A stretch of DNA of 64,000 bases. Origin: Halorubrum salipaludis (GTDB lineage: Archaea > Halobacteriota > Halobacteria > Halobacteriales > Haloferacaceae). The DNA is taken from positions 434,001 through 498,000 of the forward strand of contig NZ_NSKC01000001.1 of the NCBI RefSeq assembly GCF_002286985.1, in the 5' to 3' direction. How positions within the stretch are numbered: the stretch's first letter is position 1; every line of letters begins with the position of its first letter. The notes under the pieces were generated by a model. The model saw only the letters and a program-made list of their open reading frames with translations, made no database searches and was not told where the DNA came from. Shown piece by piece: positions 3,200 to 11,030 of this stretch. The position numbers and the translations under genes are program-made.

Positions 3200-3466
3200 T
3201 CGCTTATAAACAGACGCGCGGTGGCGTGCGCCTGCGAGCGCCCTTATAAGGGCGCGAGCAGCCCGCACGAGGGAGTCGCTGGCGGCTGTCGCCGCCAGCG
3301 ACGAGGCTGGGGAGGTACGAGGTGCGGTTGCCGTGCGGTCGGGTGGGACTCAAAGGGGCAGCCGCGAGGCGGGCGCAGGTGACGCAAGGACCGCAGGGAA
3401 CGAGCGAAGCGAGTGACCGAGGACCGCAGCGAACGTGCGCCCGCCTCGCGGCTGGGGCTTTGGAGG
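3200..3466 (+). ncRNA. Candidate structured RNA element, copy A
   Basis: One of three related elements in this window. A TTATAAAC box at 3204-3211 precedes by about 20 bases a set of nested stems. P1 pairs GCGTGCG (3224-3230) with CGCACG near 3264-3269. P2 is a perfect palindrome at 3238-3255. A fixed GAGGGAG follows. P3 has 11 perfect pairs (3275-3285 with 3292-3302). The fixed block GAGGCTGGGGAGG is at 3303-3315 and ACTCAAAGGGGCA at 3348-3360. P4 is a 19-bp perfect long-range stem (3359-3377 with 3436-3454), and the element ends in GGGGCTTTG. CAAAG and CTTTG also pair beyond P4. The block GGTGACGCAAGGACCGCA is inside P4. Short reading frames through it are not conserved between copies. Transcription and function are inferred, not shown. 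Confidence 0.55.
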
Positions 3467-3740
3467 AGATCGCGTCGATCGGCCGTTTATGAACAACGAG
3501 ACCAACGTACAGCCGAGCAACTGGGGCTTTGGAGGAGTTCGTGTCGATCGGCCGTTTATGAACAACGAGACCAACGTACAGCCGAGCGGCTGGGGCTTTG
3601 GAGGAGATCGCGTCGATCGGCCGTTTATGAACAACGAGACCAACGTACAGCCGAGCGACTGGGGCTTTGGAGGAGATCGCGTCGATCGGCCGTTTATGAA
3701 CAACGAGACCAACGTACAGCCGAGCGGCTGGGGCTTTGGC
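3452..3740 (+). repeat. 69-bp tandem repeat, four full units and a partial fifth
   Basis: Units begin CTGGGGCTTTGG at 3452, 3521, 3590, 3659 and 3728, exactly 69 bases apart. Units are near-identical and differ mainly at the base pair before CTGGGG (GC, AA, GA) and at GATCGCG versus GTTCGTG. Each unit contains GTTTATGAAC, close to the TTATAAAC box found upstream of the structured elements, and each starts with the 3' terminal block of copy A. Because 69 is a multiple of three, both strands stay open and give a spurious 23-residue peptide repeat. The array ends near TTCACCG and a TTATAAAC at about 3764. There are no spacers, so it is not CRISPR. Confidence 0.9.
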
Positions 3741-3855
3741 GGCGTTCACCGCGCTGGCAACCACTTATAAACGTCTCACGCCGGGTCCGCCATTCCGGGC
3801 CCGATCATCTCCCCATCGCCAACGGACCTATATCCGACGCGCCGGTACGGCCTCC

Positions 3856-4250: not shown

Positions 4251-5471
4251 ATGAAACGGACGGCGATCGTCGTCGCGCTCCTCGTCGCGGTCGGCGTCGG
4301 GCTCGCGGCCTCCGGCTTCTTCGCCGGGGCGGGCGACGAGGCGCCGCCGCCGACCGTCGAGGAGCCGGCGCCCTCGGGGGTCGAGGAGGCGTCGCTCGTC
4401 GAGGTCGCGGGCGAGTACCGGCTCTGGCCGTACACGAGCCGGAGCACCGATCCGGCGGGCCGGACGCTCGCGATCAACGTCCTCTTCCACGCCGACGCGG
4501 AGACGACGCGCGCGGCGATCGAGGGGCGGTCCGGGGCGGACTGGGAGGAGACCGAGGAGGCGGAGGCGGCGGCGACGACCGCCAGCGACGCCGAGCAGGT
4601 GGGGGCGATCGTCGAGCGCGACTGGGCGGACGCGCACAGCTCCGACCGCTACAGCTACGTGGAGGGGCCGGACGGCGGCGTCTGGCTGGAGGAGACGTTC
4701 GAGCTCCACGACGGCGCGTACCTCGGCGTGCGCGACCACCTCCGCGCGTACGAGTCGCCGGACGGCGCCTACACCGCGGTGCAGGCCCACGAGGAGTACT
4801 ACGACTGGTTCCGGCTCCGCCACACGGTGCCGGGCATCGACGCCCCCGCCGTCAGGCTGGAAGACGAGTTCATCCGCGGCGGGGTCGACGCCGAGGTCAG
4901 CCGCGAGTACCGCGGCATCGAGGGCGGGTGGAGCGACGGCTGGGTCTCGGTGATCGAGCTCGCGGCGCTGGCGACGCTGTCCGGCGCGCTGCTCCGGCGC
5001 CGGACCCGGGCCGCGGCGGTCGAGCTCGCGGGTCGGGCCCGGCGGGAGGCGGGGCGACACGCGGACGCCGCGCTGCTCGGCGCCGCGCTCGCGGCCGTCA
5101 TCGTCGGGGTCCGGGTCGCGGGGGTCGCGCTGGAGACAGCGTATCCGGGGGTCGGTCCGAAGCTCATCGCCGCCCCGCTGTACCTCGCCATCGCGGTCGG
5201 GATCCCGGGGCTGGTCGTCGCGCGGGCCCCCGATTCGGAGCCGAGCGCGGCGCTGCTCGGGGTCGTTATCGGGCTGGGCGCGGGGTTCGTGATCGACTTC
5301 GCGGCGCTCGGCGTGGCGGTGCCGCCCGACCTCCTCGTCCACCGGGTCGCCCTCCTCGCCGCGATCGGCGTCGTCGCGCTGGGACGGGCCGCCGGCGACC
5401 GCCCGGTGCTCGCGGCGGGGCTGGCCGCGTGGGCGGTCGGGCTGGCGCTCCCGCTCGCAGACGTGATCTGA
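4251..5471 (+). CDS. Exported or membrane protein of unknown function, C-terminal TM bundle
   Basis: 406 residues from ATG 4251. It opens with a lysine/arginine-flanked hydrophobic helix (AIVVALLVAVGVGLAASGFF) that could be a signal anchor. An acidic extracytoplasmic domain of about 210 residues follows, with no family motif I recognise. The last 170 residues form four to five hydrophobic segments separated by Arg-rich loops. The topology suggests a large domain outside the membrane held by the C-terminal bundle. No catalytic motif was seen. The gene stands alone on the plus strand, with 107 bases before the next start. I cannot assign a function. Confidence 0.7.
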   Translation: MKRTAIVVALLVAVGVGLAASGFFAGAGDEAPPPTVEEPAPSGVEEASLVEVAGEYRLWPYTSRSTDPAGRTLAINVLFHADAETTRAAIEGRSGADWEETEEAEAAATTASDAEQVGAIVERDWADAHSSDRYSYVEGPDGGVWLEETFELHDGAYLGVRDHLRAYESPDGAYTAVQAHEEYYDWFRLRHTVPGIDAPAVRLEDEFIRGGVDAEVSREYRGIEGGWSDGWVSVIELAALATLSGALLRRRTRAAAVELAGRARREAGRHADAALLGAALAAVIVGVRVAGVALETAYPGVGPKLIAAPLYLAIAVGIPGLVVARAPDSEPSAALLGVVIGLGAGFVIDFAALGVAVPPDLLVHRVALLAAIGVVALGRAAGDRPVLAAGLAAWAVGLALPLADVI

Positions 5472-5578: not shown

Positions 5579-7528
5579 ATGACGCGGCAGATCAGCCGGC
5601 GGGAGACGCTCGCGGGGGTCGGAGTCGCGGCCCTGAGCGCCGGCTGTCTCGGCCGCACGCGGAACATCGCGGGCCGCGACCGGTCCTCGCAGCTGACCCT
5701 GGAGATCAACGCCCCGCCCGCCGACAGGGACCCCAACGCGATCCGGATCGCGAGACACCTCGCTGAGAACCTGAACGCGGTCGGGATCGACGCCCGGATC
5801 AACACCCTCGGGCACACCGACCTCCGGCGGAAGGTGCTCATCAACCACAACTTCGACGTGTACGTCGGGCAGTTCCGGGAGGCGGAGCCGTTCGACCCGG
5901 ACGCGATGTACGCGTTCACCCACTCGCGGTTCGTCGCCGAGGCGGGGTGGCAGAACCCGTTCGGGTTCACCGACATCAACGGCGTCGACGACCTGCTCGC
6001 GAGCCAGCGCCGCACCGAGGGCGACGAGCGACGCGAGGCGGCCGCGGACCTCCAGCGGGCCCTCGCCGAGCTGCAGCCGTTCACCGTCGTGGCGTTCCCC
6101 GACCCGCTCACGGCGGTCCGCGAGGACCGCTTCGAGAACTGGACGAACCGCCAGCCGCTGTCGGTCGGCGGGCTGCTGGGCTTGGAGCGCGTCGGCGCGG
6201 CGGGCGGCGACGCGGACGGGAGCGAGACCGGGAACGAAACCGCCGACGGCGACGCCAACGAGACGATCGACGGCAACGAGACCGACGAGGACCTGATCGA
6301 CGACAACCCGCTCACGGACGATGAGACGGACGACGGCGACACCCTCCGGCTCGTGACGACCGACGAGCGCATCACGCAGAACTGGAACCCGATCGCCGCC
6401 GAGTACCGGCGCTACGGCACGTTCACCTCCCTGCTGTACGACCGGCTCGCGCTGGTCGACGGCGGGGAGGCGATCCCCTGGCTCGCCGCCGACTGGGAGC
6501 GGACCGGCGACGCGGGGATCGAGGTCTCGCTGCGGGACGCCGACTGGCACGACGGGGAGCCCGTGACCGCCGAAGACGTCGCGTTCACCTACGAGTTCCT
6601 CCGGGACACCGCGATGGGGGGCACCGAGTCGCCGGTACCGACGCCGACGTTCCGCGGTCGGGTCTCCGCCGTCGAGGCGGCGACCGCCGTCGACGACCGG
6701 ACGGTCCGGCTGACGCTCGACGGCGTCAACGACGCGGTCGGCGTGCGCGCGCTCCAGGTCCCGATCCTGCCGAAGCACGTCTGGGAGGAGCGGACCGACG
6801 TGGCGACGATCGCCGGCATCGAGTTCGACGCGGAGACGACCGAGGCCGTGGTGACGAACAACGAGGACCCGGTCGGGAGCGGCCCGGTGCGCTTCGCCGA
6901 GGCGACCCCGGAGGAGTCGGTCGCCTTCGAGCGCAACCCGGACCACTTCCTCGTGCGCGACGCGGGCGGCGGGTCGACCGACGGCGCGGACGCCGACGAG
7001 ACGGACCCGCTGGCGGGGATCCCCGAGCGGTTCCGCGGGAAGCCGGCGTTCGGCCGGCTGGAGATCGAGGTGATGGGCTCGGACATCGCCGCGGTGCAGG
7101 CGGTCGGCGACGGGCTCGCGGACGCGACCGTCTCGAACCTCGGCCCCGACTCAGTCCCGCGGATCGGGCGGGAGGCCGACGCGCGGCTCGTGACGGGGGA
7201 GTCCGGCGGGTTCTACCACGTCGGGTACAACGCCCGGCGGGCGCCGCTGTCGAACCCGCGGTTCCGCGGGGTCCTCGCGTCGCTGATCGACAAGCGGACC
7301 CTCGTCGACGTCGCGTTCGACGGGTACGCCGAGCCCGCCGCCTCGCCGCTCGCCGCCACCCCGGAGTGGGTGCCGTCGGACCTCCGGTGGGGGGACCGGG
7401 AAGCGGACCCCACCCACCCGTTCGTCGGCGAGTCCGGATCGCTGGACGCCGAGACGGCCCGCGAGCGGCTCCGCGAGGCCGGGTACCGATTCGACGACGA
7501 GGGGCGGCTGCTCGCGCCGAGCACATGA
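5579..7528 (+). CDS. Family-5 (oligopeptide/dipeptide type) solute-binding lipoprotein, apparently circularly permuted
   Basis: 649 residues with a twin-arginine lipoprotein signal (SRRETLAGVG, lipobox SAGC, Cys near 21). The order of parts is unusual. Residues about 40-205 match what is normally the C-terminal lobe of SBP_bac_5 proteins (IARHLAENLNAVGIDARI, then FDVYVGQF). After an Asn/Asp/Thr-rich linker of about 50 residues comes the usual N-terminal lobe: DTLRLVTTDE, PWLAADWE, WHDGEPVTAEDVAFTYEF. The chain ends at ERLREAGYRFDDEGRLLAP, exactly where the N-terminal piece would continue in a normal protein. No permease or ATPase gene is adjacent. The following PAP2 gene overlaps by ATGA, so the two are co-translated. 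The ligand is unknown. A TATA-like AGATATA lies at 5543-5549. Confidence 0.85.
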   Translation: MTRQISRRETLAGVGVAALSAGCLGRTRNIAGRDRSSQLTLEINAPPADRDPNAIRIARHLAENLNAVGIDARINTLGHTDLRRKVLINHNFDVYVGQFREAEPFDPDAMYAFTHSRFVAEAGWQNPFGFTDINGVDDLLASQRRTEGDERREAAADLQRALAELQPFTVVAFPDPLTAVREDRFENWTNRQPLSVGGLLGLERVGAAGGDADGSETGNETADGDANETIDGNETDEDLIDDNPLTDDETDDGDTLRLVTTDERITQNWNPIAAEYRRYGTFTSLLYDRLALVDGGEAIPWLAADWERTGDAGIEVSLRDADWHDGEPVTAEDVAFTYEFLRDTAMGGTESPVPTPTFRGRVSAVEAATAVDDRTVRLTLDGVNDAVGVRALQVPILPKHVWEERTDVATIAGIEFDAETTEAVVTNNEDPVGSGPVRFAEATPEESVAFERNPDHFLVRDAGGGSTDGADADETDPLAGIPERFRGKPAFGRLEIEVMGSDIAAVQAVGDGLADATVSNLGPDSVPRIGREADARLVTGESGGFYHVGYNARRAPLSNPRFRGVLASLIDKRTLVDVAFDGYAEPAASPLAATPEWVPSDLRWGDREADPTHPFVGESGSLDAETARERLREAGYRFDDEGRLLAPST

Positions 7529-8385
7529 GCCAGCTCCTGTCGGTCGCGGGGTCGCTCGCGCTGTGGGTGGGTTCCGCCCTCCTCGTCGCGGGCGTCGCCA
7601 TCATCGGCCCGCGGCGGCTGTACGCGCTCTGGAACGACCTGCGCGAGCGACTGTGGGAGATCCGGCGGCCCCTCGCGGCGCTGGTGGTGGTGCTGCTGGC
7701 GAGCGCGATCGGTCGGAGCTCGCTCCAGACGGTCTCCGAGCTGTTCGGGCTCCAGCTGACGTGGGCCATCTACGCGCTGGAGGGGAACTTCGTCGCGTGG
7801 GTGCAGGCGACGTTCGCCTCGCCGCGGCTGACGATGTACTTCTCCGCGATATACGTGTACGGGTACGTATTCCTCCTCTCGTTCCCGTTCTTCGCGTACC
7901 TCGCCCTGCCGCGGACGACGACGGTGAAACGGCTGATCGTCGCGTACGCGCTCAACTACGCGATCGGCCTCGTGATCTACACGATCGTGTTCGCGCACGG
8001 CCCGCGCAACGTCATGCCCGAGATGGTCACGTCGCTGCTTTTCACCCACAACCCGGCGTTCATGGCGCTGACCGGGGAGGTGAACGAGCCCGCGAACGTC
8101 TTCCCCTCGCTGCACACGTCGCTGTCGGTGACCGTCGGGACGTTCGCGGTCCTGACCCGCCGCGAGTACCCGCTGTGGACGCCGATCGCCGCGTGGCTCG
8201 CGATCAGCGTGGTGATCGCGACGATGTACCTCGGGATCCACTGGCTCACGGACGTGATCGGCGGGACCGCGCTCGCGCTCGGCGCGGTGTACCTGTCGTA
8301 TCGGCTCGTCGACGAGGAGGGGGAAGGCGACGGGTCCGGTGTCGTCGGCGACGGGGGGGACGGCGACCGAGACGCCGAGAAATGA
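7525..8385 (+). CDS. PAP2-superfamily membrane phosphatase or inositolphosphotransferase-like protein
   Basis: 286 residues from ATG 7525, which overlaps the stop of the binding-protein gene. Six or so TM helices are visible. Two of the three phosphatase signature motifs are present. PSLHT (near residue 193) is the second, and HWLTDVIGG (near 238) is the third, with its nucleophile-type His. The first motif is weak (AHGPRNVMPE, near 155-165). This pattern fits the PAP2_3 / Aur1-Ipt1 branch, which acts on lipid phosphates or moves phospho-head groups at the membrane. The C-terminal 30 residues are acidic and Gly-rich and probably cytoplasmic. The substrate cannot be read from sequence. Confidence 0.82.
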   Translation: MSQLLSVAGSLALWVGSALLVAGVAIIGPRRLYALWNDLRERLWEIRRPLAALVVVLLASAIGRSSLQTVSELFGLQLTWAIYALEGNFVAWVQATFASPRLTMYFSAIYVYGYVFLLSFPFFAYLALPRTTTVKRLIVAYALNYAIGLVIYTIVFAHGPRNVMPEMVTSLLFTHNPAFMALTGEVNEPANVFPSLHTSLSVTVGTFAVLTRREYPLWTPIAAWLAISVVIATMYLGIHWLTDVIGGTALALGAVYLSYRLVDEEGEGDGSGVVGDGGDGDRDAEK

Positions 8386-9069: not shown

Positions 9070-9154
9070 ACCGCCGATTCGGCCGCGAGGGGCAAAGGCC
9101 GTTCGGCGGCGGCGATCGCCACGGTTTAAGATAACCGAGTGGTACCATTTGGAT

Positions 9155-10012
9155 ATGGCATCCGCGCGAGACCCCGTGTCACCGCCCGTCGCGCTCGCGA
9201 TCGCCGGCAGCGACGCCGGCGGCGGGGCGGGGATACAGGCCGACCTGAAGGCGATGACCGCGCACGGCGTCTTCGGCACCTCGGTCGCAACGGCGACGAC
9301 CGCCCAGAACACCCGGGGCGTCCGCGACGTGCACGCGGTGCCCCCGGCGCACATCGCGAGCCAGTGCGACGCCGTCTTCGACGACTTCGACGTGGGGGCG
9401 GTCAAGACCGGCATGCTCGCCACGGCCGAGACGGTCGAGACGGTGACGGGGCTGCTCGCGGCGGTCGACGCCCCGGTCGTCGTCGACCCGGTGATGGTCG
9501 CGGCCAGTGGCGACCGCCTGCTGTCGCCCGAGGCGGAGGCGGCGTACGACGGCCTGATCGAGGCGGCGACGCTCGTCACGCCCAACGCCGACGAGGCAGC
9601 GGTGCTGGTCGACGGCCCCGTCGAGACGCCGGCCGACGCCGAGCGCGCGGGCCGGGAGCTGGTCGCCGCAGGCGCCGACGCCGCGCTCGTGAAAGGGGGG
9701 CACATCGGCGACGGCGAGACAGTGACCGACACGCTGGTGGTCGAGAGCGAGGGGGGAGGCGACGGCGGATCGGACGGCTCCGGTTCGGCGACCGCCCTCC
9801 GTTTCGAGAACCCCCGCGTCGCGACCGACGCGACCCACGGCTCCGGCTGCGCGCTGTCGAGCGCGATCGCCGCGCGGCTGGCGCGCGGCGAGCCCCTCCG
9901 CGAGGCGGTCGCCGCCGCGGTCGACGGGATGGGGCCCGCGATCCGGCGCGGCTACGACGTGGGCGAGGGGCCCGGCGCGGTGAACCCGACCGCGTTCGAC
10001 GGGGGCGCGTAA
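9155..10012 (+). CDS. thiD: Hydroxymethylpyrimidine/phosphomethylpyrimidine kinase
   Basis: 285 residues from ATG 9155. Ribokinase-fold motifs are clear: [19 protein letters not shown] (residues 14-32), [18 protein letters not shown] and the catalytic-end motif [17 protein letters not shown] near 227. It phosphorylates HMP and HMP-P in thiamine synthesis. Many haloarchaea have ThiD fused to a ThiN domain; this copy is short and lacks it. A Gly/Ser/Asp-rich insertion near 200-212 is typical haloarchaeal loop filling. A box GTTTAAGATA at about 9124-9133 fits leaderless transcription. No other thiamine gene is in the window. Confidence 0.93.
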
Positions 10013-10028
10013 CGACTCCGGTTCCGAT

Positions 10029-10826
10029 CTACACGAAGTTGAGCGGCACCATCAGCAGCGCGCCGAGCGCGATCCCGCCGGCGAGCACGGGTTTCCCGCC
10101 GCGAGGGAGGTCCCGTCCGGTGTCGAGCGCCTCGGGGACGAACTCGGAGAGCACGAGGTAGATCATCGCGCCCGCCGCGAAGCCGAAGCCGTACGGGAGG
10201 AACTCGCGGGCGTAGCGGACGAACGCGAACGCGGCGACCGCGCCGATCGGCTGCGGGAGGCTGGAGAACACCGCCCACCACACCATCTTCCACTTCGAGA
10301 CGCCCATCGCCCGCAGGGGGATGGAGATCGCGGTCCCCTCGGGGATGTTGTGGATTGAGATCGCGACCGTCATGAACACCGCTAGGAGCGGCACCGTGAA
10401 CCCGAGCAGCTGGGTCCCGCCCTCCAGTCCGAGGTCCGCGAAGGAGACGCCGACTGCGATCCCCTCCGGGAAGCTGTGGACCGTCAGCACGCCGAGGATC
10501 AGGACGAGCTTCTTGAAGTCGGCCTCCTCGTACTCCTTCGGGTCGATCTCGGCGTCCATCAGCACGTCGTGCGCGAGGACGACGAGAACCACGCCGGCGG
10601 CCATGCCGATCGCGATCTCCGCGGGCGTCCCCTCGGCGAGCCCCTCGTCGACGAGCCCGAACAGCGACGCCGCCAGCATGATTCCGGAGGCGAACCCCCA
10701 CAGCGCCACGTTGCCGCGGTCGCTGATCGAGTCGAAGAAGAAGAAGGGGAGCGCGCCGACACCCGTCGCCAGCGCCGTGATCAGCCCCGCGACGAAGACG
10801 AACGCGAACGCGTCGAGCGCGACCAT
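10029..10826 (-). CDS. ZIP family divalent metal transporter
   Basis: 265 residues, start at ATG 10826 (MVALDAFAF). An upstream in-frame start at 10853 would place charged residues before the first helix. About eight TM helices are visible. The two diagnostic metal-binding motifs are in the middle helices: HSFPEGIAVG near residue 115 and HNIPEGTAI near 160. Members move zinc or related divalent cations into the cytoplasm. The loop before TM4 has an acidic stretch (DAEIDPKEYEEAD) in place of the usual His-rich loop. It converges with thiD (16 bases apart) and lies just downstream of the SipW-type locus on the same strand. Confidence 0.9.
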   Translation of the reverse strand: MVALDAFAFVFVAGLITALATGVGALPFFFFDSISDRGNVALWGFASGIMLAASLFGLVDEGLAEGTPAEIAIGMAAGVVLVVLAHDVLMDAEIDPKEYEEADFKKLVLILGVLTVHSFPEGIAVGVSFADLGLEGGTQLLGFTVPLLAVFMTVAISIHNIPEGTAISIPLRAMGVSKWKMVWWAVFSSLPQPIGAVAAFAFVRYAREFLPYGFGFAAGAMIYLVLSEFVPEALDTGRDLPRGGKPVLAGGIALGALLMVPLNFV

Positions 10827-10871
10827 ACGGTCTGCGGTTCGGCCGGCCGGCACTAAACAATCGCGGACGCG

Positions 10872-11030
10872 CTACGCGATCCCGCGGGCGGTTCCGACGA
10901 GCAGGGCGAACAGGAGCAGCACGGCCAGCGACAGCAACACCGCGAGCTTGGCTCCGAGCCGACAGGGGCGATCGGACGGCTCCGTGACGCGCTTCTCCGC
11001 CGGCCCTCGCGGCCTGATCGAGGAGGTCAC
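10872..11030 (-). CDS. Small single-TM membrane protein
   Basis: 52 residues from a GTG at 11030. A basic N-terminal 27 residues with one Cys precede one TM helix (KLAVLLSLAVLLLLFALLVG) and a short tail. It starts 8 bases after the stop of the repeat protein upstream, so it is probably the last gene of the signal-peptidase operon. I recognise no family. The GTG start and small size make it less certain than its neighbours. Confidence 0.5.
   Translation of the reverse strand: MTSSIRPRGPAEKRVTEPSDRPCRLGAKLAVLLSLAVLLLFALLVGTARGIA

Follow-up and report, generated by a model that had tools for sequence, protein, structure and literature searches.

Order of the parts in the window protein

Why would a solute-binding lipoprotein carry what looks like its closing third directly behind the lipid anchor, and its opening two thirds at the other end? 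The question is raised by one gene of the window, as we call the whole stretch of 64,000 nucleotides that was analysed, in which an earlier note had seen a family-5 solute-binding protein (SBP5) with its two lobes in swapped order. The protein encoded at 5579-7528 is indeed an SBP5 in circularly permuted order, and the best overall explanation of the gene, to which we assign a probability of about 0.88, is that it encodes a permuted SBP5 lipoprotein composed as follows:

5579..7528, + strand: circularly permuted SBP5 lipoprotein gene, 649 aa plus stop, a single stop-free frame
5579..5647, + strand: twin-arginine (SRRETLAG) lipobox signal, M1-C23, recognised from sequence
5684..6193, + strand: segment 1, aa 36-205, equivalent to the C-terminal third of standard SBP5s (columns 322-472)
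6182..6340, + strand: acidic linker, aa 202-254, between the ancestral C- and N-termini
6341..7525, + strand: segment 2, aa 255-649, equivalent to the N-terminal two thirds of standard SBP5s (columns 12-321)
7469..7525, + strand: new C-terminus, helix LREAGYRFDDEGRLLAPST, which in standard proteins leads into segment 1

Pfam, NCBIfam, profile-profile and structural alignments agree on the exchange. In the whole protein, positions 2-283 of Pfam PF00496 align to aa 298-641 with 161.7 bits (curated cut-off 32.4), and in aa 1-253 taken alone positions 291-363 of the same profile fall on aa 44-116 (E 1.6e-4), with 21.4 bits, below the cut-off; positions 373-507 of the 535 in the NCBIfam DppA model correspond to aa 40-175. 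A profile of standard-order SBP5s was built from DppA, OppA, NikA and GsiB of E. coli K-12 together with proteins of bacteria and haloarchaea alignable over their full length, 24 in all. Against it, segment 1 (aa 36-205) matches columns 322-472 (E 1.2e-11, probability 97.4) and segment 2 (aa 255-646) matches columns 12-321 (E 1.2e-44, probability 100). The two alignments are clean complements, with neither overlap nor gap at the cut (321/322), just as expected if, as the earlier note had proposed, the end of the window protein would in a standard protein run straight into the start of segment 1. The protein passes the PF00496 cut-off, has the predicted two-lobed fold of the DppA/OppA/NikA type, and departs from the standard N-to-C order of the lobes; with its halves exchanged relative to its homologues, as in a natural permutant, it is filed as a permuted variant of the family.

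AF2 modelling of the full-length protein (pTM 0.74) points the same way. In sequential structural alignments, aa 250-649 superimpose on residues 1-329 of 4oet with Z 20.9, and on SBP5 chains generally with Z of about 19-21. Modelled by itself, segment 1 gives a weak structure (pLDDT 59.5); it aligns to residues 328-459 of 4oet with Z 6.2 and to SBP5 chains at large with a middling Z of 6-7, and a Foldseek search with this isolated model returned nothing at E 0.001 or better. All 50 structural matches listed for segment 1 are family-5 SBPs by title, the aligned region being the remaining third. The low Z and low confidence of the isolated segment call for care; most of its residues are modelled with higher confidence in the full protein, which agrees with folding that depends on the other half. 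Could segment 1 instead have nothing to do with SBP5s, or be a surplus partial copy attached to a protein of normal order? It is weakly conserved and alone stays below the Pfam cut-off, but it matches precisely the C-terminal part that segment 2 lacks, and the ORF stops, and the next gene starts, before there is room for a second copy; we regard both versions as very improbable. Neither a normal-order alignment nor an unrelated fold of segment 1, the two outcomes that the earlier note had set against its own reading, was seen. An assembly or frame artefact is less credible still, given that the same order occurs with intact frames in dozens of independent genomes (40 related loci, some partial), among them each of the 30 genomes sampled from the window's genus.

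Order can also be read by rotation. Rotating the proteins before scoring was discarded as uninformative, with a gain of at least 8 bits in just 2 of 155, since a signal peptide or long linker then comes to lie inside the domain and probably splits it; rotation of the model and the ordering of three sub-models were used in its place. In the model-rotation scan the window protein itself showed no score gain, probably because of its long linker.

The window protein opens with MTRQISRRETLAGVGVAALSAGC, a twin-arginine lipobox signal in which R7, R8 and C23 show no variation across 32 aligned homologues, bearing out the lipobox claimed earlier; the last residues are ...GRLLAPST. The acidic linker is likewise real, although its length varies from 8 to 69 residues among the 32 homologues; pLDDT falls below 50 at aa 209-251, within the linker, and the shortest examples (8 residues) show that a very short bridge suffices between the old termini. 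In DppA, an aspartate contacts the amine of the peptide; at what may be the corresponding position, located by eye, most homologues have FxE, and three (L071, L072 and L074) have HPG.

How common are permuted SBP5s?

Natural circular permutation is usually held to be rare and old. In 15 haloarchaeal genomes, drawn by class and with six from the window's genus, and therefore an uneven sample, a large minority of the SBP5 ORFs are permuted: 27 of 71, alongside 39 standard, one tandem fusion (L159) and four unclassed. Among these four, L005 is permuted by pairwise comparison and the second ORF of L137 is standard. The order of the three sub-models (N, M and T) in 155 distinct SBP5 ORFs, a set that holds many close relatives of the window gene as well as its truncated duplicate (L007), is standard in 58 and C-part first in 81; the rest are tail first (three), the tandem fusion L159, initially scored as tail first, and 12 unclassed ORFs. 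The window's own genome has five SBP5 genes by PF00496. Only L001 keeps the standard order; besides the window gene, L002, L003 and L005 are permutants too, with their cuts at other places.

The earlier note had suggested a survey of haloarchaeal homologues, and this did find permuted ones; what did not survive is the view of the window protein as a lone oddity, because permutation recurs. Many SBP5s from archaea and bacteria have the same cut as the window protein. Natrialba magadii carries a permutant on pNMAG02. Beyond haloarchaea, permutants occur in Alphaproteobacteria, in a deltaproteobacterial MAG (L078) and in other archaea, namely four genomes of one family (L187-L190) outside the window's order but in the same phylum. 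Matches in one piece to at least 91% of a query with the window-type cut lie on plasmids of Nitratireductor, Microvirga, Roseomonas, Neorhizobium and Ketogulonicigenium (the regions were examined for four of the five); Maritalea, the source of the query, also holds a permutant of this type. The C-terminus of the permuted SBP5 at 5733-7496 of L189 matches PGF-CTERM, another mode of anchoring. Four overlapping tandem genes, each coding for an SBP5-like protein, lie on a Euryarchaeota MAG contig (L088).

Several cuts and several origins

Where was the family cut? There are at least four breakpoints. In class A, the window type, the cut falls after the EAGY helix, at profile column 321/322. In class B (L141, L150, L151, L155 and, by its sequence, L005), it falls before this helix, near column 300, with the Pfam boundary near 251-260. 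Two further permutants from the window's genome have cuts of their own: the front of L003 equals the last 56 residues of the standard protein L107, and the front of L002 equals the last 78 residues of the standard L134.

Before-and-after pairs of this kind, which reach about 65% identity, allow the swapped blocks to be compared one by one. They are 61% and 63% identical between L003 and L107, 59% and 54% between L002 and L134, 38.5% and 38% between L116 and L151, and 67% and 62% between the permuted L158 and its standard-order relative in G013, a genome of the window's genus. The standard copy in G013 (L137, approximately 9082-10960) is interrupted behind the signal by one TAG and a break of the frame and is thus probably decaying; its relatives are permuted, and it adjoins a permuted SBP5 in a divergent operon.

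Trees tell of repeated change. For the N-part, a quick-search tree of 91 rows requires a minimum of six changes of order, and a second one, with other archaea added (76 rows after removal of 20 close relatives or long branches), requires nine, six of which are forced by the starred branches; these changes may include reversals, and the deep branches are weakly supported. A single origin of all permuted SBP5s was rejected: a tree constrained to keep the permuted rows in one group is worse by 484 log-likelihood units (p-AU 7e-108). Permutants with other cuts than that of the window protein have separate origins, some of them between orthologues of closely related species.

How might one gene exchange its halves? 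A route by duplication, with duplicated intermediates, is set out in the accessible text of PMC3320104. Along such a route, the gene of each SBP5 permutant would first have been duplicated in tandem, the copies then fused in frame, and the outer parts finally lost. In the window type, the permuted frame begins just ahead of the strand next after the '(A)R..L.EAGY' helix of DppA/OppA-type proteins (approximately residue 372 of the DppA precursor) and closes with this same helix, a short linker bridging the ancestral ends. The permutants would keep the usual two-lobed trap and, because the N-terminus is new, would be tethered to lipid via the other lobe. The tandem-fused form expected for permutation by duplication is present in the family: at 5509-10254 of L159 (genome G149), a frame of 1582 codons holds two complete SBP5 copies behind one twin-arginine signal, with a tail that we take to be dockerin-like. 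None of the permutants described here descends directly from L159.

A chimera, in which neighbouring genes split and the C-part of one SBP5 gene fused to the N-part of another, would produce the same order. Tandem SBP5 arrays that could feed such a process exist (the four overlapping genes of L088, the fused pair of L159), and the segments of the window subfamily are not traceable to one common parent. However, in each of the four pairs above both blocks have near-equal identity to the same protein, which is expected for one parent or a fresh duplicate; we therefore consider a chimera improbable and favour permutation by duplication.

Export via Tat, which handles folded proteins and might relax the constraint on order, was entertained as the cause of permutation and dropped, being neither necessary nor specific: the permutants of Maritalea, Nitratireductor, Neorhizobium and the archaeal L187-L190 have Sec-type signals by eye, and an RR-lipobox is found on 39 of 39 standard haloarchaeal SBP5s. 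A strict RR-lipobox pattern matches 21 of 28 permuted ORFs (L159 included); five of the seven misses visibly carry SRR...SAGC, L018 is masked by a long upstream extension of the ORF, and in L159 the RR signal lacks a lipobox.

Relation to known permutants

Compared with the standard SBP5s (DppA, OppA, NikA, AppA; cluster C, PF00496), the permutants have the same parts and the same predicted fold, and most have a similar operon context; they differ in the order of parts, and the window subfamily also in having no neighbouring transporter. Permuted family-5 SBPs were not found reported in the open literature searched (titles and abstract starts, with subscription papers mostly outside), and the same search found no report of repeated multi-site permutation within one SBP family. 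Among the PDB matches listed by phmmer for P0001 and for the Maritalea protein (42 of 42 and 60 of 66), the best stretches lie within one segment, and no permuted SBP5 was found.

A close parallel is TpMglB-2 (Tp0684) of Treponema pallidum, a circularly permuted SBP lipoprotein that still binds its ligand and for which a 'Cluster Bc' has been proposed (PMC4990184). Unlike the SBP5s, it belongs to the type I, sugar-binding class and has another cut; the part of that paper accessible to us describes one permuted group, without repeated permutation at multiple sites (PMC4990184). DNA methyltransferases and saposin/swaposin are likewise cases of permutation within one family with duplicated intermediates, according to the accessible text of PMC3320104; unlike the SBP5s, they are not exported receptors of transporters.

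A two-lobed family thought to be fixed in its order has thus been re-cut repeatedly by evolution, in haloarchaea and in some bacteria. With standard and permuted orthologues in one genus, several cuts and a tandem-fusion form all present, the steps of permutation by duplication become directly testable in SBP5s. There is also a warning for annotation: permuted members are split or under-reported when it relies on Pfam SBP_bac_5 boundaries or on order-dependent structural searches.

A subfamily paired with PAP2

What do permuted SBP5s do? Outside the window subfamily, genes for a dpp-type permease and ATPase lie within 5 kb of the permuted SBP5 in 22 of 22 cases with flanking sequence (21 classed as permuted in the neighbourhood survey; the order of L144 comes from other tests, including model rotation), and these permutants are probably working receptors of the adjacent dpp-type ABC transporters. 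The tandem fusion L159 has no permease or ATPase gene within 5 kb. For the window gene, the earlier note had remarked on the lack of an adjacent transporter gene and on an overlap with a PAP2 gene, and both remarks extend to its relatives: dpp-type permease or ATPase genes were found within 5 kb at 0 of 23 loci of the window subfamily, whose neighbours in the window are:

7525..8385, + strand: PAP2_3 membrane phosphatase/transferase gene (PF14378, E 4.8e-16), with PSxH and HxxxD intact
4251..5471, + strand: UP, upstream membrane protein, start codon placed by eye, no Pfam or NCBIfam match

The stop of the SBP gene overlaps the PAP2_3 start in ATGA (7525-7528). Across the subfamily, a PAP2_3 gene follows immediately 3' in 61 of the 64 genes with room for one, often with a 4-base overlap, and the PSxH and HxxxD motifs are kept in all 82 PAP2 ORFs. 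UP has an N-terminal hydrophobic segment, a soluble region of approximately 200 aa and six predicted C-terminal hydrophobic segments; it lies immediately 5' of the SBP gene in 47 of 65 cases and does not do so in the other 18. The SBP-PAP2 pair is thus conserved and is usually preceded by a membrane-protein gene. Matches at E < 1e-38 occur in 83 of 148 genomes searched in the family, including 30 of 30 of the window's genus, and the pair is also found on plasmids of Haloarcula (twice), Natronorubrum (two pairs consecutively), Haladaptatus and Haloferax gibbonsii. In L176 and L074, one pair directly follows another.

If the window subfamily does not serve a transporter next to it, does it serve one at all? 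Gene order and analogy suggest a possible, tentative answer: together with PAP2_3, and often UP, the SBP may act outside transport, on the outer face of the membrane, as the ligand-binding or regulatory partner in a lipid-linked reaction, much like LpqW of mycobacteria, which is reported to control lipoglycan synthesis (PMC7261415, PMC3229680, accessible parts). LpqW is an SBP5-fold lipoprotein in lipid-linked envelope synthesis that is not known for transport, and its chain 2grv, whose part order was viewed via sequential structural alignments, is among the structural matches of the window protein. The partner enzymes differ, and the pairing with PAP2 described here is that of the window subfamily. 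The protein could equally be an ordinary orphan receptor of an ABC transporter encoded elsewhere, with PAP2 a mere conserved neighbour: its model has a complete SBP5 fold, all other permutants sit in transporter operons, and the same genome has SBP5s with transporter genes nearby, such as the permease gene beside L002. The 0 of 23 loci with transporter genes, the tight and frequently overlapping linkage to PAP2 and the recurrence of the pair on plasmids of other genera speak against such a receptor; we give it about the same weight as the LpqW-like role in a PAP2 reaction and leave the remainder to others. On a broader view, which we offer as a conjecture, SBP5 might be a permutation hot spot, with at least four cuts, ongoing duplication, fusion and trimming, and transport kept, from which one ancient lineage may have left transport to become the ligand-binding subunit of a new envelope-lipid system based on PAP2. 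Whatever its role, the SBP-PAP2 pair without a transporter is conserved in haloarchaea, has no name as a system, and is open to deletion and assay.

Other features lie close to the pair. Arylsulfotransferase genes occur near it on Haloarcula and Haloferax plasmids (L143, L145 and L178). In the window, 5' of UP, positions 3413-3770 contain tandem repeats of a short unit, with a recurrent GWGFGG.RVDRPFMNNETNVQPS in the ORF translations.
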